Below, in pieces: positions 18,972-31,744 of a stretch of DNA of 39,583 nucleotides. The notes under the pieces were generated by a model. The model saw nothing but the letters and a program-made list of their open reading frames with translations, had not been told where the DNA came from and did no database searches. The translations under genes and the position numbers were made by a program. Origin of the DNA: Terriglobales bacterium. Its GTDB lineage: Bacteria > Acidobacteriota > Terriglobia > Terriglobales > Acidobacteriaceae. Where the stretch lies: positions 1-39,583 of the forward strand of contig JAICYU010000007.1 in NCBI GenBank assembly GCA_025934025.1, given 5' to 3'. How positions within the stretch are numbered: position 1 is the stretch's first letter; every line of letters begins with the position of its first letter.

Positions 18972-20822
18972 CTAGCCCTGTTTTTCTTCCAGTTCTGACC
19001 AGCGCTCGTACAAGCGGTCCACGTTCTCTTGTGCGTGATCCAGTTCGTTGTGCGCCGCGAGCAGGCGGGCGGCATCGCTGGCGATAGCCGGATCTTCCGC
19101 CGCGTCGCGCTTCTGCCGCAAAGATTCTTCGGCCTCAGTGATGCGCTCCTCCAGCGTGGCGTATTCTCGCGCTTCAAGATAAGAAAGCTTCTTCTTGATT
19201 TGATTCGCTTCGCCGACGTTCTCACTTGCTTTGCCTCTACTCGCTTCGCTCATCCCCACCTGAAGTCGGGTGTTTCTACCATCTTGTGCTTCTACCCAGT
19301 CTTCCCATTGCGTGTAGTCGGCGAACACCGCTGCACGGCCTGTGCCGTCAAGCCCGAGCACGCTTTCCGAAATGCGGTCCAGCATGTAGCGATCGTGCGT
19401 CACCAGCATGAGCGCGCCGGGAAATTCCATCAGGCTTTCCTCCAGAATTTCCAGCGTCGGGATGTCGAGATCGTTGGTGGGCTCGTCCAGCAGCAGAACG
19501 TCAGCGGGATGGAGCATGAGCTGAGCAATCAGAACCCGCGCCCGCTCGCCGCCGGAAAGCCTTGCTACCGGCTGGTTCAACTGCTCGCTGGTAAAGAGGA
19601 AGCGCGCCGCCCAGCTCGCCACGTGGATCACTCGGTCCTGGTAGATCACGGAGTCGCTCTCCGGGGCCAGCGCTCGCCGCAGCGTCACCGTTGTATCGAG
19701 CGGACGATTCTGGTCAAAGTACACCACGCGCAGCATCTCCGCCCGGCGGACCTGGCCGCGAGTGGGAGCAAGCTCGCCTGTCAGAAGCCGGAGCAACGTG
19801 GTCTTGCCGCTGCCGTTAGGACCCACCAGCCCCACGCGCTTGCCCGCCGTGAGAAGAAAATTGAGATCGCGAAAGAGCATGCGCCCGTCAATCTCAAATC
19901 CAAGCTCTTCCAGCTCGATCAGCCGCTTGGTCCGGCGCTCGGTGGAAGAAAAATCAATATCCACAGGTGCCGTCCGGGTGCGCGCGTTCAGGTCTCCCAG
20001 ATCCGCGATCAACTGGCCGGCTTTATCAATGCGTGCCTTGGATTTGCGGGTGCGCGCTTTGGCTCCGCGCCGCAGCCACTCAATTTCATGCCGCACGCGA
20101 TTTTCCAGCGACTCCTGCCGCCGCGCCTGCGCGTGCAGAAACTCCTCTTTCCGTTCCAGAAATGCCGTGTAGTCTCCGGCGACAGAGAGCAGGCCTTCAG
20201 GATAAGCGCGGCTCAGTTCCACCACTTTGCCGGCGACTGCCTGAAGAAAATAACGGTCATGGCTGACCACCACGCAGGCGAACGGCGCCGCCGCAAGCAA
20301 CGCTTCCAGCCACTCAATGCCTTCAAGATCAAGATGGTTGGTGGGCTCGTCCAGCAACAGCACGTCGGGATGCTGTACCAGCGCTTCCACGATAGCCAGC
20401 CGCTTGCGCCATCCGCCAGAGAGCGAGCCGGCCAGTGCATCAACAGCGGAGGTTTGCGAAGCAGGCTCCTGGTCAGAGAAACCGGCGCGCCCCAGCGATT
20501 CCACCAACCGCCCTTCACGCTCCCCATCAGGGACATCTGTCCGCTGCAAGGCGCGCGCGATCACCTGCCGCACGGTGAAATCTTCTGGGAAGTCCGACTG
20601 CTGCTCTACGTAAGCAATCCGGGCACGTTTTCTGGTGGCCACATCGCCGGCATCCGGCTCCAACTCGCCGGCGAGAATCCGCATGAGCGTGGATTTTCCG
20701 GAACCATTCGGCCCAATCAGCCCGATGCGCTCGTCTTCCGAGATGGTAAACGAGATCTCCTCAAACAGGGGAGCCGCGCCAAAACTCTTGCTGATGCGCT
20801 GGGCATTGATGATGGGAGGCAT
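18972..20822 (-). CDS. uup: ABC-F ATPase, Uup type
   Basis: 616 residues with two ABC ATPase domains and no membrane segment, the ABC-F plan. Domain 1 has Walker A GPNGSGKS (37-44), signature LSGGW (134-138) and Walker B LLLDEPTNHLD (155-165) followed by VVSHDRYFL. The interdomain linker (about 230-310) is basic and helical (RRGAKARTRKSKARIDKA). Domain 2 has GPNGSGKTT, LSGGERARV, LLLDEPTNDLD and VTHDRYML. A C-terminal coiled coil (about 535-616, QIKKKLSYLEAREYATLEERI) fits the DNA-binding extension of Uup. Uup proteins act on ribosomes and in limiting imprecise transposon excision. Its start ATG at 20822 gives MPPIINAQRISKSFG. A long open frame on the opposite strand is a codon-use shadow. 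Confidence 0.9.
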   Translation of the reverse strand: MPPIINAQRISKSFGAAPLFEEISFTISEDERIGLIGPNGSGKSTLMRILAGELEPDAGDVATRKRARIAYVEQQSDFPEDFTVRQVIARALQRTDVPDGEREGRLVESLGRAGFSDQEPASQTSAVDALAGSLSGGWRKRLAIVEALVQHPDVLLLDEPTNHLDLEGIEWLEALLAAAPFACVVVSHDRYFLQAVAGKVVELSRAYPEGLLSVAGDYTAFLERKEEFLHAQARRQESLENRVRHEIEWLRRGAKARTRKSKARIDKAGQLIADLGDLNARTRTAPVDIDFSSTERRTKRLIELEELGFEIDGRMLFRDLNFLLTAGKRVGLVGPNGSGKTTLLRLLTGELAPTRGQVRRAEMLRVVYFDQNRPLDTTVTLRRALAPESDSVIYQDRVIHVASWAARFLFTSEQLNQPVARLSGGERARVLIAQLMLHPADVLLLDEPTNDLDIPTLEILEESLMEFPGALMLVTHDRYMLDRISESVLGLDGTGRAAVFADYTQWEDWVEAQDGRNTRLQVGMSEASRGKASENVGEANQIKKKLSYLEAREYATLEERITEAEESLRQKRDAAEDPAIASDAARLLAAHNELDHAQENVDRLYERWSELEEKQG

Positions 20823-21186
20823 ACGCGCGGGATAGGTTGAGGATAGCAGGAAGAAGGAGAGCGGATGGGTGGACCTAAGTCCGAATTAGAGTATCGGCCA
20901 CCTCAGCTGCGCTCACGCAAACGTCGCATTCGGGGTTGGCACTCCGCGGGTGACGCGAGCTAACTCCTTTAGATTCGGGGTGATGGGGGAGGGTAGGCGG
21001 CTTGCGCACAAACGGTTACCGGAAAGTAAACATCGGGTCATGGCTTATCGCGAGCCCGCAGCTACAAGCACGCCGGAATCGTGGTGTCAGGGAATATCAG
21101 ACCCTATCTCGGTAAATGCCCGCATGAGCAGCACAAGAGGGTCGAGCAAGCTGTTCCTGAGGCGCGCTGATTTAGAATCACGCCAA
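20823..21186. other. Divergent intergenic region between uup and mutY
   Basis: 364 bp without a supportable gene. The mutY frame is open back to 20950, but that translation is arginine-rich and unlike any MutY start. The region should hold promoters for the two divergent genes; I found no convincing -35/-10 pair, hairpin or repeat in it. Confidence 0.5.
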
Positions 21187-22167
21187 ATGGCTCCTCTTGC
21201 GCCACGGTTCAATGCGAAAGTTATCAAGCGGTTTCGCCGTTTGCTGCTTCGCTGGTATGACGGTTCTCGACGTAAGTTGCCGTGGCGAGGCCAGACTGAT
21301 CCTTACCGTATTCTGGTATCGGAAATCATGCTCCAGCAGACGCGGGTGGCGGTGGTGGAAAGCCGTTACAGTGAATTTCTGCAGCGGTTTCCCACGGTGG
21401 AACGGCTTGCCCGGGCCAGCGAGCAGACTGTTCTGGCGGCGTGGAGCGGACTGGGTTATTACCGGCGCGCGCGGTCGCTTCGGCAGGCTGCAATCACAGT
21501 GGGTCACTCCGGTGGATTTCCGCGAAACGCTTCTGAACTGGAAATGCTGCCCGGTATCGGACGATATACCGCGGCGGCGGTAGCCAGCATCGCCTTCAAC
21601 CAGCCGGTTCCTGTGGTTGACGGAAATGTAAAACGCGTACTGTCGCGTGTTGCCGGACGGGACCTTGGTGACCAGGAATGCTGGAGCCTGGCCGCGGAGC
21701 TGTTGGAATCCAGGCGACCAGGTGACTTCAATCAGGCGCTGATGGAACTGGGAGCGATGGTCTGCCTGCCCGCCGGCGCGCCCCGATGCGCGGTGTGTCC
21801 GGTGGTTGAGCTTTGCTCCTGGCGCGGGGCCAAACAGAAATCAGCGGTGTCTTTGGCGCGAAAGGCTGTGCTCAAGTACCTGCTGGCCGAGAAGAACGGC
21901 GCGATTCTGCTGCGGCAGCGCGCTTTATCCGACCGCCTGATGCCGGGCATGTGGGAGTTGCCGGAAATTGCGGTGCCCGCGGATCATGAGCCATTACTCA
22001 AGCTGCGCCACTCCATCACCAATACCAATTACACGGTGCTGGTGTTTTCCGGAAACAGGCCAAGGGCCGGCAGCGCGCGCTGGGTACCGCTTCAGCGCGC
22101 CCCCAGGTTGCCGCTTACAGGATTAGCGCGAAAGATCCTGCGCCGGATCAAGAGCGGACAAGCGTGA
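21187..22167 (+). CDS. mutY: Adenine DNA glycosylase MutY
   Basis: 326 residues. MutY removes adenine mispaired with 8-oxoguanine. Catalytic Glu E46 sits in VSEIMLQQTRV and the catalytic Asp D145 in VPVVDGNVKRV. The helix-hairpin-helix LPGIGRYTAAAVASIAF starts at 121. The iron-sulfur cysteines are C193, C201, C204 and C210, a CX7CX2CX5C spacing; the first gap is one longer than the common X6, a variant also known in other MutY proteins. The C-terminal part (about 225-326) is a short MutT/NUDIX-like 8-oxoG-recognition domain (LMPGMWELPEI, LRHSITN). ATG at 21187 is chosen because homology begins there. The TGA overlaps the next gene's GTG (GTGA). Confidence 0.94.
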   Translation: MAPLAPRFNAKVIKRFRRLLLRWYDGSRRKLPWRGQTDPYRILVSEIMLQQTRVAVVESRYSEFLQRFPTVERLARASEQTVLAAWSGLGYYRRARSLRQAAITVGHSGGFPRNASELEMLPGIGRYTAAAVASIAFNQPVPVVDGNVKRVLSRVAGRDLGDQECWSLAAELLESRRPGDFNQALMELGAMVCLPAGAPRCAVCPVVELCSWRGAKQKSAVSLARKAVLKYLLAEKNGAILLRQRALSDRLMPGMWELPEIAVPADHEPLLKLRHSITNTNYTVLVFSGNRPRAGSARWVPLQRAPRLPLTGLARKILRRIKSGQA

Positions 22168-23558
22168 GAAGAACCATTCTGCTGTTTGTTGTAGCTTCGA
22201 CGTTGGCGTCGGGAGCCATGGCCCAGGACCGCAAGCAATCCGATTGCGTGGCGACGAATGCCCGCCCGCCGCGCGGCGTGACAAGAATCTTCATCGCGCA
22301 GCATGGAGGTGTCGATGGCACACTCGATGGCAGCATCGCCGAGCGCTTCGACCGCATTCTCCGCTGCTATTCCGAAGGATGCCATGTACCTGGGGGGAAG
22401 CCGGTCAAAGCAACAGAAAATCTGATCGTCTGCCTGGGACCGGGTACTTTTTTCACCAAAGGAACTTATGACTTCGTAATAGATGTGCCGCACAAGACCT
22501 CGGAAGGCTTCACAATCGGCAAAGGCTGGCATATCCACGGCGCTGGAGTTGACCAGACAACAGTCAAGCTGGCTGCGTACTTGCCGTTTCATGCCCATCA
22601 ATCGCCCGCGAATATGCCAGAAGATTCCGGAGCGGGAGTGGTCTTCAGCACCAATTCCGATCAGGCATCAGGGGTGGAAATCTCTGATCTCACCATTGAC
22701 GCTAACTATCCTGAGCTGAAGAAGCAGGCCACGGCCGCAGGAATCAAGGCGCTCAATCTGGAAGCAATTCACCTGCGCTCGGACCAGGGCGGCCACTGGA
22801 TTTACGAGGTCAGAATCATCAATGCAGCGGGAGAAATCGGCGCCATTGACATCCATTGGGAAACCTTTCCGGTGTGGATCGTCTCGATGAAGAACGGCTC
22901 TGTTCCGCAGCAAGACAACGAAAACGTGATTGAACGCGTTTCCATGAGCAATTACGGCGGTGGCGCATGCACAGCAATCGCGGTCGCGAATGCTGTCGCC
23001 GAAGTCAGGAACAATCGTGTTGAAGGTTACGGGATTGCATTCGGCGGCTGGACCATGGGGCCTGTCTGGTTTCACGACAATACTGCCGTCGGAACCGACT
23101 ACGGTTTCAACATTGATAGCCTTACAAATCAAGGAGTCAGGATCGAGCACAACCAAATAGTTCATCCCCGCAACTACGGAATTGTAATAGGCGGAGATGG
23201 AACGTACTCGAACTTCAAAATCGTCAACAACTCAATCGAGATAGACAAGCCGGGAGTGGTGGGGTTGATCTTCCGGGGGAATGTCACGGGCGCGGAGGTC
23301 GTGGGGAACAGTATTCTGGCGCCGCTTGGCGTGGAGGCCAGCGCGATCAGCAACTACGCGACGAGCCTTCTTGCCAAGCCCAACGTTAATAATGTCTATC
23401 AATCTAACCGGATCAGCAGTCAGCTACAGGTTTCGTTCCGGGGCCTTTCCTGGAAGTCGAGGAGCTGCATCGCCGGCAATCAGGACGAGAACGGCAAACC
23501 CAGCCGCAGCCTTCCTGACAACCATGCGGGAGCGTGTCTCACATCGCACCTCGATTAG
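22164..23558 (+). CDS. Secreted right-handed parallel beta-helix protein (pectate-lyase-like fold)
   Basis: 464 residues. A signal peptide is clear: MRR, a hydrophobic run, and a likely cut at SGAMA-QD (21/22). The mature part has the repeated short strands and Asn/Gly turns of a parallel beta-helix: VEISDLTIDANY, IYEVRIINAAG, VIERVSMSNYGGG, VRNNRVEGYGIAFGG, VWFHDNTAVG, VRIEHNQIVHPRNYGIVIGG, FKIVNNSIEI, AEVVGNSI. Such proteins bind or cleave polysaccharides, but I cannot identify catalytic residues or a lyase family. Six or so cysteines (C28, C68, C73 and others) suggest disulfides in an exported protein. The GTG start overlaps the mutY stop as GTGA. The kinase/hydrolase fusion gene follows 80 bp later on the same strand. 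Confidence 0.75.
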   Translation: MRRTILLFVVASTLASGAMAQDRKQSDCVATNARPPRGVTRIFIAQHGGVDGTLDGSIAERFDRILRCYSEGCHVPGGKPVKATENLIVCLGPGTFFTKGTYDFVIDVPHKTSEGFTIGKGWHIHGAGVDQTTVKLAAYLPFHAHQSPANMPEDSGAGVVFSTNSDQASGVEISDLTIDANYPELKKQATAAGIKALNLEAIHLRSDQGGHWIYEVRIINAAGEIGAIDIHWETFPVWIVSMKNGSVPQQDNENVIERVSMSNYGGGACTAIAVANAVAEVRNNRVEGYGIAFGGWTMGPVWFHDNTAVGTDYGFNIDSLTNQGVRIEHNQIVHPRNYGIVIGGDGTYSNFKIVNNSIEIDKPGVVGLIFRGNVTGAEVVGNSILAPLGVEASAISNYATSLLAKPNVNNVYQSNRISSQLQVSFRGLSWKSRSCIAGNQDENGKPSRSLPDNHAGACLTSHLD

Positions 23559-23620
23559 CGCTGACGGTTTTCACGCACAGCTTGGCCAAATCAGCTAAAC
23601 TCCGTCGTATAACGTTATTT

Positions 23621-23630
23621 GGGGGGGAGG
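23621..23630 (+). promoter_or_regulatory. Strong ribosome binding site fixing the kinase start
   Basis: GGGGGGGAGG ends 8 bp before ATG 23639. It is the best ribosome site seen in the window, and it selects this ATG over the upstream in-frame ATG at 23534, which lies inside the preceding gene. Confidence 0.75.
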
Positions 23631-23638
23631 ATAGGTGC

Positions 23639-26554
23639 ATGCGTGGTCGCAAGATCTCGCATTTCCGCATTCTGGAAAAAATCGGGGCCGGCGGGATGGG
23701 CGAGGTCTACAAAGCCGAAGATACAGAACTGGGTCGTTTTGTTGCAATAAAGTTTCTTCCAGAACGGGTTGCTGGAGATCATGAAGCCGTCGAGCGATTT
23801 CGTCGCGAAGCACGCAGTATTTCGGCGTTAAATCACCCGAATATCTGCACCATTTACGAAACTGGAGAATCGGACGGCGAATTTTTCCTGGCTATGGAAT
23901 TTCTGGAGGGGCAGACACTCAGAGAGACTCTCAATGGAGAGACGCTGCAATTCGACCAGGTCCTTGCGTTTGCAACCCAAATCGTCGATGCGTTGGATAC
24001 GGCGCACTCGCATGGAATCATTCACCGGGATATTAAGCCGGAAAATATCTTTGTAACCCGTCGCGGGCAGATCAAGATTCTCGACTTCGGCCTCGCCAAG
24101 GTAACTCTCGACCATTATGGTGTTTCAAGAATGGCTGGAGTGGCCGCTCTCACCACCGCAGCGGGCGCCACACACGATTTCCTGACCACCCCCGGCAGTG
24201 CAGTGGGGACGCTCGCGTACATGTCCCCGGAGCAGGCACGAGGCGCCCCCTTGGATGCGCGGACGGACCTGTTCAGCTTCGGCACAGTGTTATACGAAAT
24301 GTCAACCGATAGCCGTCCTTTTTCAGGCGAAAGCCTTGCTGCGCTCATCGATTCGATTCTGCATGCTAAACCGGCCAGAATTTGCTCCGGGAACCCTCAA
24401 TTCTCAGCAGAGATGGAGCGAATCATTTTCAGTGCCCTGGAAAAAAGTCCAGCCGATCGCGTGGCTTCAGCGGCAATCATGCGCTCCGCCTTTGAGACGT
24501 TGCGGCAAAAGAGGTTGTTGGAAGCGAGACGAGCTTCACCGCTGATCCGCGCTCTAAGAAGGCCTTTCGCTGCAGCCATTTTGGCCCTGGTCCTCGGCGC
24601 TTTGGGCGTTTCTGGCGCACTCATGTATCGCCAACACTCCCGTCTGCGATGGTTGCGTGAGGAGGCCGCACCGGAAATTATTCAATTGGCCTTACAGCGC
24701 AAAGGAATTGCCGCTTATCGGCTTATCAAAGACGCAGAACGCTACGCGTCGAATGATCCTGCTCTGGTAAAAGTAAAGGCCGCGACGCTGTGGCCAAACG
24801 CGGTTCTCTCCAGTCCTTCGGGCGCAGATGTCTATGTGCGTGACTACAGCGACACCCAGGGCAAGTGGGAGTATCTGGGCAAAACTCCTCTGGGAGGGGC
24901 TCGGCTGCCACATGCCTTTTATGCCTTCAAACTCACGAAAGATGGGTATACACCCGTTCAGGCCACCGGCACCGCGCTTGACGGATCTCCGGTCAACGTC
25001 CTGCTTGATCCGGTAGGGAGCCTGCCGCCAGACATGGTCCACATCCCTCCTGGTAAGGTTGATCCAACAGGCCATGCGCCTGCACACGTTGATGATTTTC
25101 TGATGGACAAATTTGAGGTCACTAACCGCGACTACAAAAAATTCGTAGATGCTGGAGGATATCGCGACTCCAGATACTGGAAGCATCAATTCGTCAAAGA
25201 TGGCCGGAAGATGAACTTCAGTGAAGCCATGCTGCTGTTTCGCGATAAGACGAACCGCTTTGGGCCGGCGAATTGGGAACTCGGGGCCTATCCGCCCGGT
25301 GAAGATGAGTATCCTGTCAGCGGCGTAAGCTGGTATGAGGCTGCGGCCTATGCTCAGTTTCAAGGGAAGGCATTGCCCACCGTCTATCACTGGTACCGGG
25401 CCGCGGATATGGGCAGATTCTCCGATATCTTGCAGGCAAGCAACTTTTCCGGAAAAGGGCCGGCCAGAGTGGGCAGCTACGCCGGCTTGGGGCCTTTTGG
25501 GACCTATGATATGGCCGGGAATGTCAAAGAGTGGTGCTTCAATTCGACCGGGCCATCCAGGTACATTCTCGGCGGGGCTTCCACGGATCCTCCGTATCTC
25601 TATCACGATGCTGAAGCGCGATCACCATTTGACCGCTCTGCGGTCAATGGAGTCCGTCTGATGAGATATCTTCATTCGGAGCCTGCTCAGCAAGCTTTGA
25701 ACCGCCCGCTCTCGTTTGAAATGGCTGATTACCGGAAGATGAAGCCTGTACCCGATCCGGTGTTTCGCATCTATGAAAGCCTTTATTCCTATGACCGGAC
25801 GCCGCTCGATCCCCGGATCGAGAGCGAGGATGACAGCTCACTTTATTGGCGGCGGCAGCGCATTACCTTCAATGCCGCATATGGCGACGAACGCGTGATC
25901 GCATATCTATTTCTTCCCAAGAGCGTCTCGCCGCCGTATCAAACGGTTGTCTATTTCCCACATGGCGGGGCTCAGACGTTCCACACTGTTGAAGATACGC
26001 AGTTGGCGCAAATTGACTTTCTGGTGAAGAGCGGACGCGCCCTGATGTTCCCCATCTACAAAGATACTTATGAGCGGCTTGGTACCCCACCGGAGGAAGG
26101 CACAGTTGCTGAACGAGATGAAACCATCCAGCAAGCCAAAGACTTGCGACGCGCTATAGATTACCTTGAAACCCGTCCTGATATTGACACGAAGCATCTG
26201 GCCTATTACGGCATAAGTTGGGGTGCGGAGCTGGGCGCGATCATGACCGCTGTTGAAAAGAGATTCAAAGCCGCAGTGTTTGCAGCCGGAGGCTGTGACA
26301 ATGCCAAAGTCCTTCCGGAGGTGGATCCGATGAACTACGCTCCGCGCGCCAAGTTGCCGGTGCTGATGATCAATGGAAGATACGATTTCATGATTCCGCT
26401 GGAAACCTGTCAGGAGCCCTTCTTCAAGCTTTTAGGCGCTGCGCCGCAGGACAAGAAGCACGTCTTGTTCGATACGGGCCATGCCCCTCCGCAATTGCCG
26501 GTCATGAAAGAAGCTCTGGATTGGCTGGATAAGTATCTGGGGCCAGTGAAATGA
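23639..26554 (+). CDS. Ser/Thr kinase - membrane segment - PEGA-like - FGE-sulfatase-like - alpha/beta hydrolase fusion
   Basis: 971 residues. The kinase (about 8-290) is complete: glycine loop IGAGGMGEVY (15-24), K38 in VAIK, HRDIKPEN (129-136), DFG (149-151), SPEQA (196-200). One membrane segment lies at about 310-331. Residues about 388-457 resemble a PEGA sandwich (SSPSGADVYV, YLGKTPLGG, KLTKDGYTP). Residues about 463-678 form a formylglycine-generating-enzyme/SUMF1-like domain (KFEVTNRDYKKFVDAGG, YPVSGVSWYEAAAYAQF, YDMAGNVKEWC, RYILGGAS, NGVRLMRY), but the paired active-site cysteines of true FGE are absent, so it is probably a binding domain. The C-terminus (about 690-971) is an alpha/beta hydrolase with candidate triad S860 (GISWG), D916 and H948. 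The kinase would face the cytoplasm and the rest the periplasm. Substrates are unknown. Confidence 0.85.
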   Translation: MRGRKISHFRILEKIGAGGMGEVYKAEDTELGRFVAIKFLPERVAGDHEAVERFRREARSISALNHPNICTIYETGESDGEFFLAMEFLEGQTLRETLNGETLQFDQVLAFATQIVDALDTAHSHGIIHRDIKPENIFVTRRGQIKILDFGLAKVTLDHYGVSRMAGVAALTTAAGATHDFLTTPGSAVGTLAYMSPEQARGAPLDARTDLFSFGTVLYEMSTDSRPFSGESLAALIDSILHAKPARICSGNPQFSAEMERIIFSALEKSPADRVASAAIMRSAFETLRQKRLLEARRASPLIRALRRPFAAAILALVLGALGVSGALMYRQHSRLRWLREEAAPEIIQLALQRKGIAAYRLIKDAERYASNDPALVKVKAATLWPNAVLSSPSGADVYVRDYSDTQGKWEYLGKTPLGGARLPHAFYAFKLTKDGYTPVQATGTALDGSPVNVLLDPVGSLPPDMVHIPPGKVDPTGHAPAHVDDFLMDKFEVTNRDYKKFVDAGGYRDSRYWKHQFVKDGRKMNFSEAMLLFRDKTNRFGPANWELGAYPPGEDEYPVSGVSWYEAAAYAQFQGKALPTVYHWYRAADMGRFSDILQASNFSGKGPARVGSYAGLGPFGTYDMAGNVKEWCFNSTGPSRYILGGASTDPPYLYHDAEARSPFDRSAVNGVRLMRYLHSEPAQQALNRPLSFEMADYRKMKPVPDPVFRIYESLYSYDRTPLDPRIESEDDSSLYWRRQRITFNAAYGDERVIAYLFLPKSVSPPYQTVVYFPHGGAQTFHTVEDTQLAQIDFLVKSGRALMFPIYKDTYERLGTPPEEGTVAERDETIQQAKDLRRAIDYLETRPDIDTKHLAYYGISWGAELGAIMTAVEKRFKAAVFAAGGCDNAKVLPEVDPMNYAPRAKLPVLMINGRYDFMIPLETCQEPFFKLLGAAPQDKKHVLFDTGHAPPQLPVMKEALDWLDKYLGPVK

Positions 26555-26575
26555 ACAGCCGATGACCAAGTTTTC

Positions 26576-29107
26576 ATGATCACAGAGCAGGAGATCCTTC
26601 GCTATCTCGCCAAGCAGCCACGGCATCTGGCCGGTTACAAACAAATCCTGCATGACTTCGGCCTTCGTGGGAAAGAGCGCCGGCCATTGGAGCAGACGCT
26701 GCGCGAGATGACGCGGCAGAAAAAGCTCGTCACGATCGGCAAAGAGCGATGGGCGCTTCCTTCGGCTGCTTCAAACAACGATCTCGTGTTGGGCCATTTG
26801 CGCATGCATCGTGATGGATACGGATTCGTCACACCTGATCCGGATGGTCTTCCCCCCCGCGCCAAAGGCAAGCTGCTAGGCGATGTTTTTATTCCGCCGC
26901 CTGAGATCGGCAGCGCCATGCACGGCGACCAGGTACTGGTGGAGCTCGGACGCATTCGCCCGGACGGAAAAGGTGAAGGCCGAATTCTGAGAGTGACCGA
27001 GCGAGAACAGGCGCGCGTCGTCGGCATGTTCCATTACGGCAGCCGGAACAACTATGTCACGCCGATTGACGAGAAGGTTGGGATGGAGATCACCATCCCG
27101 CCTGGAATGGAAGACCCACAAGAGCAGCAAGAACTCAAACAAGCATCGCAGAACGATACGAAACAAGGCGGTTCACCCAGTCCAAAACATTCGCGGAAAG
27201 CTGGTCCGCACCGGGTGCTCGGCGAAGAAGCGAAGCAGCGGGACTGGACCGATCTGGAAGGCGTTGTGGTGGAGGTGGAGATCACGCAATTTCCTTCCGC
27301 CACTCAGGGCCCGCGCGGCCGAGTGGTAGAGATTCTCGGTTACGAAGATGATTTTGGCGTGGATGTAGAGATCATCATCCGCAAGCACCACATCCGCCAT
27401 ACGTTTCTCGCAGATGCGCTCGCAGAAGCGCAGGAGATCAGCCCGGTAATCCCACAAGCTGAAATTGCGCGGCGCAACGACTACCGCGACCTGCCCATTG
27501 TGACCATTGACGGAGAGACAGCGCGCGACTTCGACGATGCAGTACTTGTTACCCGCCTGCCTCACGGACATTACGAGCTGCAAGTTCATATCGCCGACGT
27601 TGCCCATTACGTTGAAGACGGCTCTGCCATTGATGATGAAGCCCGCAAGCGCGGCACGTCAGTTTACTTCCCGGATCGCGCCGTGCCCATGCTGCCGCTG
27701 GAGCTTTCGACTGACATCTGCAGTCTTCGCCCTCACATGGACCGGCTGGTACTTTCCTGCGTGATGGAGATGGATCGCCAGGGAGAGGTTCTGAGCTACG
27801 AACTGGCGGAAGGCGTCATCCGCTCCGCTCAGCGAATGACTTATACGGACGTGAACGCCGTAATCGAAGGCGACGAGCACATCCGCCGTCGTTACGCCGC
27901 ACTGGCCCCCAATTTCGAGCTGATGTACGAACTGGCGCAGGTGCTGAACAAAAAAAGAGCCAGGCGCGGCTCCATTGACTTTGATTTGCCGGAGCCGGTG
28001 ATTGAGTTTGACGAGCACGGAATGATGAAAGGCGTGATCGCGTCCGAGCGGAACTGGGCGCATCGGCTGATTGAAGAATTCATGCTCGCTGCCAATGAGA
28101 CCGTTGCTACTCATCTCGAGCAGCACGGAATCGCCAGTCTTTATCGTATTCACGAGAAGCCTGATCCCAAGCGGATTTACGATTTTGAAACCATCGCAGC
28201 CAGCTTCGGCTATTCGCTCGGCGTGGGAGCGCTGCCCATCAAGCGCGTGCAGACGCGGACCGACAAACGATCGCATTATGGCAGCGGGCGCCGTGCCCCG
28301 GTTGTCGAATTGCCCGAAGAAGTCCACGTGACTCCGCGCATGTATCAGAAGCTGGTGCAGAAGATCACCGGCAAGCCGGAAGAGCGCGTGCTGTCGTATC
28401 TGATGCTGCGCTCGCTGAAACAGGCGCGCTATTCGGAAATCAATGAAGGGCACTTCGCTCTGGCTGCGGCAACTTACACTCATTTCACGTCGCCGATTCG
28501 CCGCTATCCCGATCTGATCGTGCACAGAATTCTCAAGGCTGTTCTGCATGAGAGCGGAGGCAAGAATCAGGGGCTTACGGCCGAAGGCCCCGGAGACTCA
28601 TCTCCCTGGTCGAAAAGGCGCCCTTCGTCCAGCAGGTCCATTTCGTCCACTTCGTCCAGCGGCCCTCCCAAAAAGCTGAAAGCTGTAGCCGGCCTGTCGC
28701 TTGATACTCTGCACGACATTGCTGAAAGTTCCAGCCAGACTGAGCGCGCTGCCGACGAAGCTGAACGCGAGCTGATGGAATGGAAAAAACTCAAGTTCAT
28801 GCAGGACCGGCTTGGCGAAGAGTTCGACGGCTTGATCGTTAGCGTGACCAAGTTTGGTTTCTTTGTCGAGCTGGTGGACCTTTTTATTGAAGGCCTGGTC
28901 CCGATTGACTCTCTCGAAGGCGACCAGTACACGTTCCGCGAGAACACGCGGCAGATCATCGGCAGCCACTCCCGCAAGACATTTTCCATCGGCGACAAGG
29001 TGCGCGTGCTGGCCGACCGCATTGATCCCGTCCAGCACAAAATCCAGTTCGCGCTGGCGGAAGAAGCGCCAAAGCGCGCGCAACGGCGGCACAAAGGACG
29101 CGGCTGA
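26576..29107 (+). CDS. rnr: Ribonuclease R (3'-5' exoribonuclease) with a low-complexity insertion
   Basis: 843 residues. RNase R degrades structured RNA. An N-terminal winged-helix-like region (1-65; YKQILHDFGLRGKERRPLEQTLREM) is followed by cold-shock domains (LGHLRMHRDGYGFVTPDP). The RNB domain has the metal-binding TIDGETARDFDDAV near 309-322, and the conserved block HFTSPIRRYPDLIVHR. The C-terminal S1 domain contains EEFDGLIVSVTKFGFFVELVDLFIEGLVPI, and the end is basic. Between RNB and S1, residues about 660-700 hold a Ser/Pro/Lys-rich insert coded in part by four 9-bp repeats (28622-28657), longer than the short linker expected. A second variable linker lies near 180-215 (Gln/Lys-rich). 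The start ATG at 26576 is 21 bp after the kinase fusion stop. Confidence 0.95.
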   Translation: MITEQEILRYLAKQPRHLAGYKQILHDFGLRGKERRPLEQTLREMTRQKKLVTIGKERWALPSAASNNDLVLGHLRMHRDGYGFVTPDPDGLPPRAKGKLLGDVFIPPPEIGSAMHGDQVLVELGRIRPDGKGEGRILRVTEREQARVVGMFHYGSRNNYVTPIDEKVGMEITIPPGMEDPQEQQELKQASQNDTKQGGSPSPKHSRKAGPHRVLGEEAKQRDWTDLEGVVVEVEITQFPSATQGPRGRVVEILGYEDDFGVDVEIIIRKHHIRHTFLADALAEAQEISPVIPQAEIARRNDYRDLPIVTIDGETARDFDDAVLVTRLPHGHYELQVHIADVAHYVEDGSAIDDEARKRGTSVYFPDRAVPMLPLELSTDICSLRPHMDRLVLSCVMEMDRQGEVLSYELAEGVIRSAQRMTYTDVNAVIEGDEHIRRRYAALAPNFELMYELAQVLNKKRARRGSIDFDLPEPVIEFDEHGMMKGVIASERNWAHRLIEEFMLAANETVATHLEQHGIASLYRIHEKPDPKRIYDFETIAASFGYSLGVGALPIKRVQTRTDKRSHYGSGRRAPVVELPEEVHVTPRMYQKLVQKITGKPEERVLSYLMLRSLKQARYSEINEGHFALAAATYTHFTSPIRRYPDLIVHRILKAVLHESGGKNQGLTAEGPGDSSPWSKRRPSSSRSISSTSSSGPPKKLKAVAGLSLDTLHDIAESSSQTERAADEAERELMEWKKLKFMQDRLGEEFDGLIVSVTKFGFFVELVDLFIEGLVPIDSLEGDQYTFRENTRQIIGSHSRKTFSIGDKVRVLADRIDPVQHKIQFALAEEAPKRAQRRHKGRG
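28622..28657 (+). repeat. Four 9-bp tandem repeats inside rnr
   Basis: CCTTCGTCC, AGCAGGTCC, ATTTCGTCC and ACTTCGTCC lie head to tail at 28622-28630, 28631-28639, 28640-28648 and 28649-28657. All end in GTCC and three of four share TTCGTCC. The period is a multiple of three, so the reading frame of rnr is kept and the array is translated as a Ser/Arg-rich stretch between the RNB and S1 domains. Confidence 0.8.
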
Positions 29108-29166
29108 GATTCGATCGCTTCTCCTAAAGATTCGGCTCGATGGGTGCTCTTGGTAGAATGGTTCTA

Positions 29167-29442
29167 ATGCCGCGAATGGTGAAATGCGCAAAGCTGGGGA
29201 GCGAACTGCCGGGGCTGGACGAGCCGCCGTTTGATACTCCTTTGGGCCAAAAGATTTATGAGAGCGTCAGTGCCGAGGCCTGGAGGATGTGGAGCGAGCA
29301 CTCCAAAATGCTGCTGAATGAGTACCGTCTTCAGCCCTGGAAGCCGGAAGCGCAGCAGTTCCTGGTGGAGCAGATGGAAGCTTTCTTTTTCGGCCCAGGT
29401 TCGGCTCTTCCCAAGGAGTACGTGCCACCGCCGAAGCCCTGA
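29167..29442 (+). CDS. yggX: YggX-type Fe(II)-trafficking/oxidative-damage protection protein
   Basis: 91 residues, the family length. Recognised from MVKCAKLGSELPGLDEPPF, GQKIYESVSAEAWRMWSEHSKMLLNEYRL and AQQFLVEQMEAFFFG, which match the YggX (Pfam Iron_traffic) pattern including the conserved cysteine near the start (C7 here). YggX protects iron-sulfur enzymes and is thought to handle labile iron. ATG at 29167 gives MPRMVKCAKLG, aligning with the usual MSRTVxC start; ATG at 29176 or 29158 are alternatives. It follows rnr by 59 bp. A hairpin terminator lies downstream before the convergent hydrolase. Confidence 0.9.
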   Translation: MPRMVKCAKLGSELPGLDEPPFDTPLGQKIYESVSAEAWRMWSEHSKMLLNEYRLQPWKPEAQQFLVEQMEAFFFGPGSALPKEYVPPPKP

Positions 29443-29544
29443 GCCTTCTTCTGATTAAAAATTTTTAATTGCACTATTTCTTATATTTTTTGGTACTCTG
29501 GCCTGCCACTATATCAATGTAAAGCTGCGCCTGACGCAAGCTTG

Positions 29545-29586
29545 CTCCTTGGGAGTTTTCGGCAGAGAGCTCCTTTGGGGCTTTTT
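29545..29586 (+). terminator. Two tandem hairpins with T-runs (rho-independent terminator)
   Basis: CTCC-TTG-GGAG followed by TTTT (29546-29559), then AGCTCC-TTT-GGGGCT followed by TTTT (29568-29586, one G-T pair in the stem). Both are on the plus strand downstream of yggX, just before the end of the convergent hydrolase gene. Further upstream ATTAAAAATTTTTAAT (29454-29469) is a perfect 16-bp A/T palindrome that may add to termination. Confidence 0.65.
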
Positions 29587-30382
29587 ATTTGCGCGCCGTT
29601 GTTCGCTTTCCTTCAAGAAAGCTCCTTATTTCCGGCCAATGTCGCACGACCGTCTCTTCGGTCTTGAGATGACCGCCACGAGGCAGGAGCTTGAGTCTGA
29701 TTCCAGCGGCATCTGCGAATTGCCGGACCGATTGCCAGGGAATGTAGGGGTCGTCTTTGGCGTGGAACATCAGTATTTTCTCCGGCGCAAGCCGCTCGAT
29801 CTCTTTCACCGGATTGAAGAACCTGCCGGAGCGCAGCTTGTTCCAGTTTTTTTCTTTCAACCGATAGCCATGTCCGAACGCTTCGCGCAGGTAGGCCGGA
29901 TAGCTCGGATTGGAGGTTTCCTTCGGCTGTTCCTGGCCGAGAATGCTCCAGTCCACCACTGGACAGTTCGCGACAACTTTTGTAACGCGCGGATCAAGTG
30001 AGGCTAAGATGGCTGCGGCTCCCCCAAAACTGCCGCCGATCACAAAGATCTCTTCCGGCTTTAACTTGAACTCCTGTCCAAAGGCGTTTTCGCGCAGCCC
30101 TTTCGGAAGCTCGTCAATGATGTCCTTGATGTCCTGCTCCGGCGACTGGTGCAGAAATTCACCATCGCTCTCCCACGCTCCACGCCATCGCGGATAGATA
30201 ACCCAGTATCCTTTCCCGGCAAGAAACCGGGCCAGCGGCTGTTTCCTGGGGACGGAGGGTATGCCATCGCAAAGAATGATGACCTTGTCCTGTTCTCGCG
30301 TTCGCGCAGGCGGCAGAAACTCGGCAACGATCTCTTGCTTAAAGCGGGTGCGAAACACCGGAGAAGTATACTTGGCGTGCAA
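29585..30382 (-). CDS. Alpha/beta hydrolase (prolyl-oligopeptidase/esterase-like)
   Basis: 265 residues, no signal peptide. The nucleophile elbow GGSFGG puts the serine at S118. An acid residue lies in HAKDDPYIPW (D211) and the histidine in PRGGHLK (H238), a complete catalytic triad in the usual order. The oxyanion region is ILCDGIPSVP. Members hydrolyse esters or peptides; the substrate cannot be told. The first possible start is TTG at 30382, right after an in-frame TGA; GTG at 30358 (giving VFRTRFKQEI) is an alternative and neither has a good ribosome site. The divergent metallopeptidase-like gene begins only 24 bp away, so promoters must lie inside the neighbouring reading frames. Confidence 0.8.
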   Translation of the reverse strand: MHAKYTSPVFRTRFKQEIVAEFLPPARTREQDKVIILCDGIPSVPRKQPLARFLAGKGYWVIYPRWRGAWESDGEFLHQSPEQDIKDIIDELPKGLRENAFGQEFKLKPEEIFVIGGSFGGAAAILASLDPRVTKVVANCPVVDWSILGQEQPKETSNPSYPAYLREAFGHGYRLKEKNWNKLRSGRFFNPVKEIERLAPEKILMFHAKDDPYIPWQSVRQFADAAGIRLKLLPRGGHLKTEETVVRHWPEIRSFLEGKRTTARK

Positions 30383-30395
30383 TCATCTTCTACTC

Positions 30396-30400
30396 AGGAG
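30396..30400 (+). promoter_or_regulatory. Ribosome binding site supporting a TTG start
   Basis: AGGAG ends 6 bp before TTG 30407. The TTG opens directly into a signal peptide, which together with this site overrides longer in-frame starts lying antisense within the hydrolase gene. Confidence 0.65.
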
Positions 30401-30406
30401 CCGGTC

Positions 30407-31744
30407 TTGGGTAAGCTACACAGCTTTTTCCTGTCGCTCGCATTTTCATCACTGGCTTTTGGCCAGCAGGCCGCAATCAATCCCGAGTTTGCTCAGCAGT
30501 ACTTCCAGGAGATGAGGGCAGTCTCGCAGAAAGATGGTGGCCGCCTGTGGGGCGTGACGCTATACGGCCCCATGCTATTTGCCGACCCAGGCACGCACCG
30601 GGTGGTCGCAAACCAGGCGGACAAAGAAGGCCGGCTGCACGAGCAGAACGGCGTTTTCCTCGGGCAGCTTTCGCCGGAGATGCCGATTGCCAACACTGGA
30701 GTGGATTGGGCCGGGGTGCGCTGGACCATGGTGATGTGGCCTCTGCCTGATAACCGGCGCCCGCGGAAGCAACTGATGGCGCACGAATCGTTTCACCGCA
30801 TTCAACCGCAGCTTGGATTGAAGCCGCTCGAGAACAGCAACAACCATCTTGACGGCCGCATCGGACGTGCATGGCTACAACTGGAGTGGCGCGCCCTCTC
30901 CAAGGCCCTCAACACGAACGGTTCCGCACAGCGGGATGCAATTTCCGATGCCCTCTACTTTCGCGCACTGCGCCGGTTTTTGATCCCGAATGCGGCAATC
31001 AACGAGAACCGCCTTGAAGCCAATGAGGGCGTGGCCGAGTACACAGGGGTAAAGTTGAGCGCGCGTTATCCGCAGGAAGCCGCTCTGGTGGCTTCGGTGA
31101 TTTTGTGGCAAGGCCCGAATCGCTCGCCGTTCGTGCGCAGCTTTGCTTACGTCTCCGGCCCGGCGTATGGCGTTCTGCTCGATGAGAGCGGCACGCCGTG
31201 GCGCAAGCGACTCACGCCGGATTCCGATCTGGGCGCGCTGCTCGCCTCGGCTTATCACGTTGCTTACCCGCTAGCGGGAAACGGCACCAGCCCCAATCCG
31301 AAATTGAATGAAACGGAAGCCGCCGCCCGAGCGCAAAAGTATGATGGCGACGAGGTGGTCGTCCACGAGAAGGAGCGCGAAGCCAGACAGCAGAAAGTCA
31401 TTGCTGAAGCTCGCTCGCGGTTGATCGAACATCCGGTACTGGTGCTTCCGGCAAGCACGAACGTCAACTACAGCTTTGATCCTGACCAGGTCACGGCCAT
31501 CAACGACGATGAGAGCGTCTTTTCAGGCGATGTGAAGGTAATTGACTCGTGGGGCGTGCTCTCCGTGACAACCGGCGCGCTATTTGTGCGTGAAAATGGT
31601 CGTATTGTGCGCGTCCAGGTCCCCGCACCCTCCCATCCTGCCGGCTCTCATATCAGCGGAGACGGCTGGCAGTTAGAGCTCAAGCCCGGGTGGGATCTAG
31701 TGCCGGGACAAAGGCAGGGAGATTGGACGGTTAAACAGAAATAG
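30407..31744 (+). CDS. Secreted protein with HExxH...E zinc-peptidase signature; family not recognised
   Basis: 445 residues from a TTG start. The signal peptide reads GKLHSFFLSLAFSSLAFG, with a likely cut before QQAAINPEF. I do not recognise the family. The centre holds HESFH at 126-130 (HExxH) preceded by PRKQLMA, and 77 residues later NEGVAEYTG with E207 and E211. HExxH plus a downstream Glu in an (N)ExxxEY helix is the zinc-ligand pattern of gluzincin-type metallopeptidases. The C-terminal part (about 325-445) has a charged helix (EKEREARQQKVIAEARSRL) then beta-rich sequence ending WQLELKPGWDLVPG, likely a separate domain. Peptidase activity is inference. It diverges from an alpha/beta hydrolase with only 24 bp between starts. 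Confidence 0.72.
   Translation: MGKLHSFFLSLAFSSLAFGQQAAINPEFAQQYFQEMRAVSQKDGGRLWGVTLYGPMLFADPGTHRVVANQADKEGRLHEQNGVFLGQLSPEMPIANTGVDWAGVRWTMVMWPLPDNRRPRKQLMAHESFHRIQPQLGLKPLENSNNHLDGRIGRAWLQLEWRALSKALNTNGSAQRDAISDALYFRALRRFLIPNAAINENRLEANEGVAEYTGVKLSARYPQEAALVASVILWQGPNRSPFVRSFAYVSGPAYGVLLDESGTPWRKRLTPDSDLGALLASAYHVAYPLAGNGTSPNPKLNETEAAARAQKYDGDEVVVHEKEREARQQKVIAEARSRLIEHPVLVLPASTNVNYSFDPDQVTAINDDESVFSGDVKVIDSWGVLSVTTGALFVRENGRIVRVQVPAPSHPAGSHISGDGWQLELKPGWDLVPGQRQGDWTVKQK

Follow-up and report, generated by a model that had tools for sequence, protein, structure and literature searches.

A membrane-anchored PEGA-FGE-hydrolase module with exchangeable N-terminal domains and a probable role in extracytoplasmic sensing

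The locus and its five-part chain

We analysed a stretch of 39,583 nucleotides from a Terriglobales bacterium of the Acidobacteriaceae (assembly GCA_025934025.1, contig JAICYU010000007.1), referred to here as the window, in which a single gene at 23639..26554 on the forward strand encodes a 971-residue protein joining a serine/threonine kinase to an FGE-like domain and an alpha/beta hydrolase. The translation, which is followed by a stop codon, runs in one frame without internal stops, and a purine run, GGGGAGG, lies 8 bases 5' of the ATG at 23639. All features of this gene described below are on the same strand.

The N-terminal part is a Hanks-type kinase domain (residues 10-283, 23666..24487), matched by Pfam Pkinase at 173.3 bits against a cut-off of 31.7 and carrying the VAIK, HRDIKPEN and DFG motifs. 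With the VAIK lysine, the HRD aspartate and DFG all in place, together with the single membrane helix predicted by hydropathy at residues 310-330 (24566..24628), the protein has the features of a receptor Ser/Thr kinase. Juxtamembrane helices forming a hairpin follow, presumed to lie outside the membrane (residues 333-383, 24635..24787), and then a beta sandwich (residues 384-455, 24788..25003), where Pfam PEGA matches residues 389-443 at 17.7 bits, under its cut-off of 20.8, so that 'PEGA-like' is the fitting term. The FGE-like domain (residues 464-679, 25028..25675) is matched by Pfam FGE-sulfatase over residues 464-636 (88.8 bits, cut-off 23.3), and the alpha/beta hydrolase domain occupies residues 697-971 (25727..26551), with a match to the DLH family at residues 755-925 that passes the family score (28.8 bits, cut-off 21.0). 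The candidate catalytic triad consists of the nucleophile S860 in GISWG (26216..26218), D916 (26384..26386) and H948 (26480..26482). A preliminary description of this locus, made from the letters of the DNA, had proposed the five-part order, a hydrolase fold beyond residue 690 and precisely these three triad residues; Pfam, hydropathy and fold comparison agree with it on the order and the fold, and the triad residues lie at exactly the positions it gave.

The union of a hydrolase and a signalling domain on one chain, also proposed in that description, is borne out by single-frame homologues in dozens of genomes. Because the identical domain order recurs in this way, the chain is confirmed to be real, and is neither a chance product nor a single assembly join. 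An accidental fusion or assembly artefact therefore has a negligible chance of accounting for it, even though most of the records are metagenome-assembled genomes (MAGs) and several chains (L072, L085, L087 and L147; L numbers are our handles for loci) are interrupted, either by the end of a contig or by a break in the frame. Single-frame chains also occur in two records whose titles do not mark them as MAGs (Acidobacteria bacterium AB60, L119; Povalibacter uvarum DSM 26723, L178) and on a contig of 5.66 Mb (G370:C1). Separately started genes at this point in relatives, which would have spoken for two genes, were not clearly seen; L087 does have its chain split between two frames that overlap, and no N-terminal domain is in frame in L072 or L085, but these three are presumably broken frames.

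Searching 396 genomes drawn from the phylum with the C-terminal 524 residues of the window protein gave some match in 298, and most of the weaker matches listed extend over just one of the two parts, FGE or hydrolase. Matches scoring more than 240 bits were found in at least 44 genomes, the window's own included, a lower bound as at most three candidates per genome were scored. The gene is patchy in distribution, since the window genome holds one copy and the match in the single congeneric genome listed is weak (E 2e-8). When one genome per species was scanned with an alignment of 49 rows, at least 595 stretches were returned, at least 551 of them encoding a relative; the best 80 span, going by record titles, Acidobacteria, Aminicenantes, Verrucomicrobia, Planctomycetes, Gemmatimonadetes, Bacteroidetes/Ignavibacteria, Proteobacteria, Myxococcaceae, Latescibacterota, Zixibacteriota, Calditrichia and Marinimicrobia. 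The relatives are mostly MAGs and their taxon labels are those of the records, by which the modules occur in Acidobacteriota and about ten other phyla and are not a local oddity.

A constant outer module behind exchanged N-terminal domains

After two duplicate pairs had been merged, 127 distinct modules were aligned, and the three outer domains keep one order in all of them. Sequence divergence is considerable, with 33-50% identity to the window module among aligned modules and a mean column identity of 42% in a 70-row alignment; the triad is nevertheless retained almost throughout, with Ser in 126, Asp in 126 and His in 123 of the 127. The exceptions are L147, where the contig ends (it is the one module lacking the Asp), L126 and L085, whose ends are apparently damaged, and the degenerate L140. 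All 25 modules with an assigned non-kinase N-terminus have an intact triad (winged helix 5, TIR 8 with three of these assigned by eye, cyclase 2, BTAD 1 and multi-membrane-segment forms 9), as do both modules that combine a winged helix with a kinase.

AlphaFold2 modelling of residues 332-971, based on 70 aligned sequences, predicts the outer part as one confident, compact unit (predicted local distance difference test, pLDDT, 93.8; predicted template modelling score, pTM, 0.90). Residues 332-468 modelled alone form three helices and a beta sandwich (pLDDT 94.7), in keeping with the alignment; the sandwich matches various common sandwich folds with Z of at most 9.1, in a comparison that barely covers the juxtamembrane helices. 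The FGE part retains many fold residues across the modules and is nearest in fold to EgtB (4x8b_A; Z 23.4, root-mean-square deviation (rmsd) 2.2, 203 residues aligned). As the preliminary description had stated, the FGE cysteine pair is missing: the loop between GG 645-646 and GxR 671-673 has no cysteine in the window protein and in 118 of the 127 modules in all, one in 9 and two in none, and in the profile match to the FGE crystal sequence 6s07 the cysteine-bearing stretch of the latter is an insertion that the module lacks. The domain thus has the FGE fold without the catalytic pair. The chain scores 75.9 bits with NCBIfam EgtB against a cut-off of 360, and no DinB-type domain, which carries the catalytic residues in EgtB, was matched on it at E up to 0.1.

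For the hydrolase part the nearest folds are CE7 acetyl esterases (5fdf_A; Z 26.0, rmsd 2.7, 260 residues aligned, 19% identity), a group that includes acetyl xylan esterase and cephalosporin C deacetylase, and sequence-profile matches also include MHETase, PETase-like and cutinase chains. CE7 enzymes carry the nucleophile motif GxSQG, with Gln after the nucleophile; the window protein has GISWG instead, and the residue following the serine is Trp in 82 of the 127 modules, Leu in 13 and Met in 7. It further differs from CE7 enzymes in being membrane-tethered and fused, and its AXE1 match falls below threshold (17.5 bits, cut-off 21). A solo relative of the hydrolase, about 28% identical, was noticed at L090 (5081-6103); it has an N-terminal hydrophobic segment by eye, an AXE1 match above the cut-off and an Abhydrolase match, and may be a secreted cousin of the sensor enzyme.

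The N-terminal halves are not constant. By label, the 127 modules comprise 89 with a kinase, 9 with multiple membrane segments (MTM), 8 TIR-like, 5 with a winged helix, 2 with a winged helix and a kinase, 2 with a cyclase, 1 with BTAD and 11 with none; seven of the latter lie on frames cut by a contig start, and the uncut ones are L072, L085, L159 and L174. Pfam confirms TIR in L136, L143, L144, L146 and L155, a nucleotide cyclase in L137 and L154, BTAD in L153, a winged helix alone in L068, L132, L148, L152 and L178, and a winged helix together with a Ser/Thr kinase on one chain before the module in L077 (5068-8559) and L107 (6507-9818). The remaining three TIR labels (L123:4938-7763, L128:7029-9791 and L130:7020-9815) were given by eye to mutually similar starts of about 190 residues beginning FISYRQ, which have no Pfam match and match only a seed taken from L128. 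Further variation is seen in L066, with two kinase domains in tandem, and in L103, with a TPR array between kinase and module. In L174 (7836-9407), a kinase fragment of about 55 residues joins the FGE part directly without a membrane helix, which could be a deletion, an assembly error or a decayed gene. This survey of domain order goes beyond the case first described, in that the outer cassette is conserved while the N-terminal domains have been swapped.

A tree built on the module columns only (123 rows, with L147, L085, L126 and L172 left out) requires at least 15 changes of N-terminal label against a shuffled mean of 22.6, counting six labels including MTM and treating winged helix plus kinase as kinase; labels therefore reflect inheritance in part and exchange in part. 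When only well supported branches are counted, the kinase label must still have changed at least 8 times, TIR and MTM at least 4 times each and winged helix at least 3 times. In approximately unbiased (AU) tests on 37 rows, hand-picked after the tree had been seen, a single origin is rejected for TIR, both with all 8 rows (p-AU 2e-4) and with the 5 Pfam-confirmed rows (3e-35), and for the winged helix with 4 of its 5 rows, L178 being left out (2e-59).

Among kinase-labelled rows, 87 are free of truncation by a contig start, and 79 of these match all three loose kinase motif patterns. Coupling of kinases to diverse C-terminal parts is usual in the window genome, where the 7 other kinase genes found carry C-terminal PD40, PEGA (2), TPR (3) or no listed sensor. 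In 87 of the 90 rows labelled as kinases, that of the window included, exactly one hydrophobic segment lies ahead of the module. Kinase, DNA-binding, TIR and cyclase domains work on the cytoplasmic side and, given the single membrane helix, the C-terminal module presumably lies outside the membrane.

A proposed hydrolase-based input module and its relation to known systems

Because the outer cassette stays constant while the inner domains change, an external input is likely to be coupled to the output; because the triad is so well kept, catalysis is favoured as part of sensing. We consider it probable, on balance, that the outer part serves as a portable extracytoplasmic input module with the N-terminal domain as its output, in which an active-site-competent hydrolase reads a ligand with an ester or acyl group. 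A small molecule or glycan bearing such a group would enter the hydrolase site, and its binding, its cleavage or an acyl-enzyme state would alter the packing of the hydrolase against the FGE-like domain; alternatively, the hydrolase product might be handed over to the FGE-like pocket. The PEGA and helical stalk could relay the change through the membrane helix and so alter the oligomeric state of the output, which in the window protein would switch the Ser/Thr kinase on or off. The CE7-like fold is the sole ground for taking the ligand to be an ester or acyl compound, perhaps with a carbohydrate as carrier; catalysis and the inward direction of signalling are likewise inferred.

The hydrolase and FGE-like sites might instead only bind the ligand, with catalysis being vestigial or serving to reset the receptor, as in the second of two models for RsbQ-PAS, set out in PMC3183031 (papers are cited here by their PubMed Central, PMC, identifiers, on the basis of excerpts), where the hydrolase is the receptor. 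Two features speak for such a binding receptor: the degenerate triad of L140 in an otherwise normal-looking kinase receptor, and R813 and R846, invariant in 127 of 127 modules and thus, by alignment, as strictly kept as the triad. In a pure binder, however, loss of Ser or His should be commoner, whereas the whole triad is kept at 33-50% identity in all output classes, and we regard this explanation as unlikely. A tethered enzyme is the other arrangement to be weighed. Signalling would then run from the inside out, with the hydrolase as effector on a substrate in the envelope or outside the cell and the N-terminal domain either controlling the hydrolase or reporting on it. The intact triad and CE7-like fold are consistent with it, as are the multi-helix forms without recognised output and the solo relative at L090, yet the winged-helix-only and BTAD forms have no enzymatic domain able to modify the hydrolase, and repeated exchange of the inner domain beside an unchanging outer one is what sensors usually show, which makes this arrangement rather improbable.

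Several observations weigh against the portable input module. The 9 MTM modules carry two or three hydrophobic segments in their N-terminal part and lack a recognised output (L161, L166, L167, L169, L173, L121 and L149 uncut; L115 and L175 cut by a contig start; the label was seeded from members), so signalling is not proven to be universal, and those with two segments would need a different start topology to place the module outside. Exchange is read from a tree in which 45 of 120 inner branches are poorly supported. The positive-inside bias is weak: over 89 kinase rows the mean count of lysine plus arginine is 4.29 on the N-terminal side of the helix and 3.71 on the C-terminal side, with the N-terminal count the higher in 45 rows and the lower in 22. 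A disulfide between C633 and C674 was considered and rejected, as the two columns do not co-vary (both cysteines in 62 modules, one only in 26 and 24, neither in 15), and hence no disulfide evidence for an oxidising compartment is obtained. No clear conserved partner or ligand-indicating neighbour emerged across 124 loci, many with short flanks, where a crude caller collected open reading frames of at least 90 residues within 5 kb. Lastly, since the kinase receptor L140 (980-4675), otherwise normal-looking, has lost Ser and His (N, D and Q at the triad positions), catalysis may be dispensable; this receptor offers a natural control for whether it is needed.

Many bacterial receptor kinases have no known ligand. 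An intact and assayable active site would give a direct route to one, with the hydrolase substrate as a candidate signal for receptors of the kinase, DNA-binding, TIR and cyclase types. More tentatively, and with somewhat less than even chances, the PEGA-FGE-esterase cassette may define an undescribed, widespread class of transmembrane enzyme-receptors that senses ester or acyl turnover and has repeatedly been joined to kinases, ToxR-like regulators, TIR domains and nucleotide cyclases, in which case very different responses would share one external cue.

By analogy, the nearest counterpart is the hydrolase-PAS pair RsbQ and RsbP-PAS of Bacillus subtilis and others (PMC3183031), which likewise couples an alpha/beta hydrolase with a second sensory domain and serves diverse outputs, namely a PPM phosphatase, a histidine kinase and a diguanylate cyclase. 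According to the excerpted text the RsbQ triad is needed for signalling, the model other than the receptor one is product delivery, and the cue is called mysterious. RsbQ differs in being a separate cytoplasmic protein that acts in trans on a PAS partner, whereas in the window family the hydrolase and the FGE-like domain sit together on one chain, on what is presumably the outer side of the membrane, and are coupled to outputs of the Ser/Thr kinase, winged-helix, TIR, class III cyclase and BTAD types; no PAS domain was matched on the window chain at E up to 0.1. If sensing does involve the enzyme, the cassette would be a single-chain, outer-face counterpart of this sensor.

With its cysteine-less FGE domain and N-terminal extension, the window protein fits the description of the OCTIN superfamily (PMC5915273), whose N-terminal extensions include Kinase and PEGA; OCTIN itself is a crystal-forming protein, and the excerpts of that paper describe neither a C-terminal hydrolase nor an analysis of swapped outputs. 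In PMC4522959 the FGE domain is listed among architectures of annotated bacterial prolyl oligopeptidase (POP) homologues, and POP homologues fused to transcription-regulator domains are also given; by these lists, FGE-hydrolase and DNA-binding-hydrolase fusions of some kind are already in print, which counts against novelty. Compared by description, the excerpted survey names no kinase-PEGA-FGE-hydrolase chain and takes no view of an exchangeable sensor. Sensors with C-type-lectin/FGE folds diversified by diversity-generating retroelements (DGRs; PMC10907252) resemble the present family in using an FGE-type fold as a putative sensor with TIR or kinase domains, and differ in that the FGE part of the window protein is strongly conserved and not C-terminal. 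DGR diversification was rejected here, with 0 RVT_1 matches in the window genome and 0 direct-repeat families of at least 40 bases in 19000-31000.

As each of these identities fails on a tested feature, the window protein is not an FGE, an EgtB, a CE7 enzyme or a member of RsbQ-PAS. Its parts and some of their fusions are already known, and we would file the cassette among membrane receptors with an enzyme-like sensor. No description of a kinase-PEGA-FGE-hydrolase chain or of swapped outputs was found in searches of the open-licence PMC literature, which does not imply absence from print.

Neighbouring genes

Upstream of the kinase gene, at 22164-23558, lies a secreted-looking protein with a weak Beta_helix match (20.1 bits, cut-off 25.9), which had earlier been suggested to supply or share a carbohydrate ligand. 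Among the 830 neighbouring open frames of the 124 loci it matched only itself and, having no homologue in other neighbourhoods, was dropped as a partner. The two largest families among the neighbours are other kinases, at 23 loci, and extracytoplasmic function (ECF) sigma factors, at 11.

In 7 of these 11 loci, all of kinase type (L119, L048, L138, L158, L111, L079 and L061), the Sigma70_ECF gene shares the strand of the module gene and lies no more than 133 bp upstream of it; at least 700 bases upstream were available in 74 of the 90 kinase-labelled modules. By eye, the presumed sigma2.2 region has no acidic residue before VHE (as in LQPTALVHEAY) in L079, L048, L119, L138 and L111, and keeps one in L158 (LQATEL) and L061 (LDVTGL). 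In PMC8999054, ECF43 members are described as lacking the acidic DAED motif and being activated by phosphorylation, while other kinase-linked groups keep DAED. The arrangement recalls the PknS-EcfK and PknT-EcfP pathways, which lead from a kinase to an ECF43 sigma factor (PMC13147305, PMC8999054) and where a receptor kinase likewise adjoins an ECF sigma gene; PknS differs in having a periplasmic TPR region, and the ECF genes of our loci are candidates only. This suggests that adjoining ECF sigma factors are one downstream route for some members and possible kinase substrates. The window gene itself has no adjoining Sigma70_ECF gene, and the best Sigma70_ECF match of the window genome lies directly upstream of a TPR-type kinase (G000:C307).

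Several stretches carry more than one copy of the receptor: three in L070 (3066-19849), three in L084 (one cut by the end), and two each in L127 and L053. A separate alpha/beta hydrolase of 265 residues, encoded in the window on the reverse strand at 29585-30382 and matched by Hydrolase_4 and Abhydrolase_6, appears to be an ordinary member of its fold.

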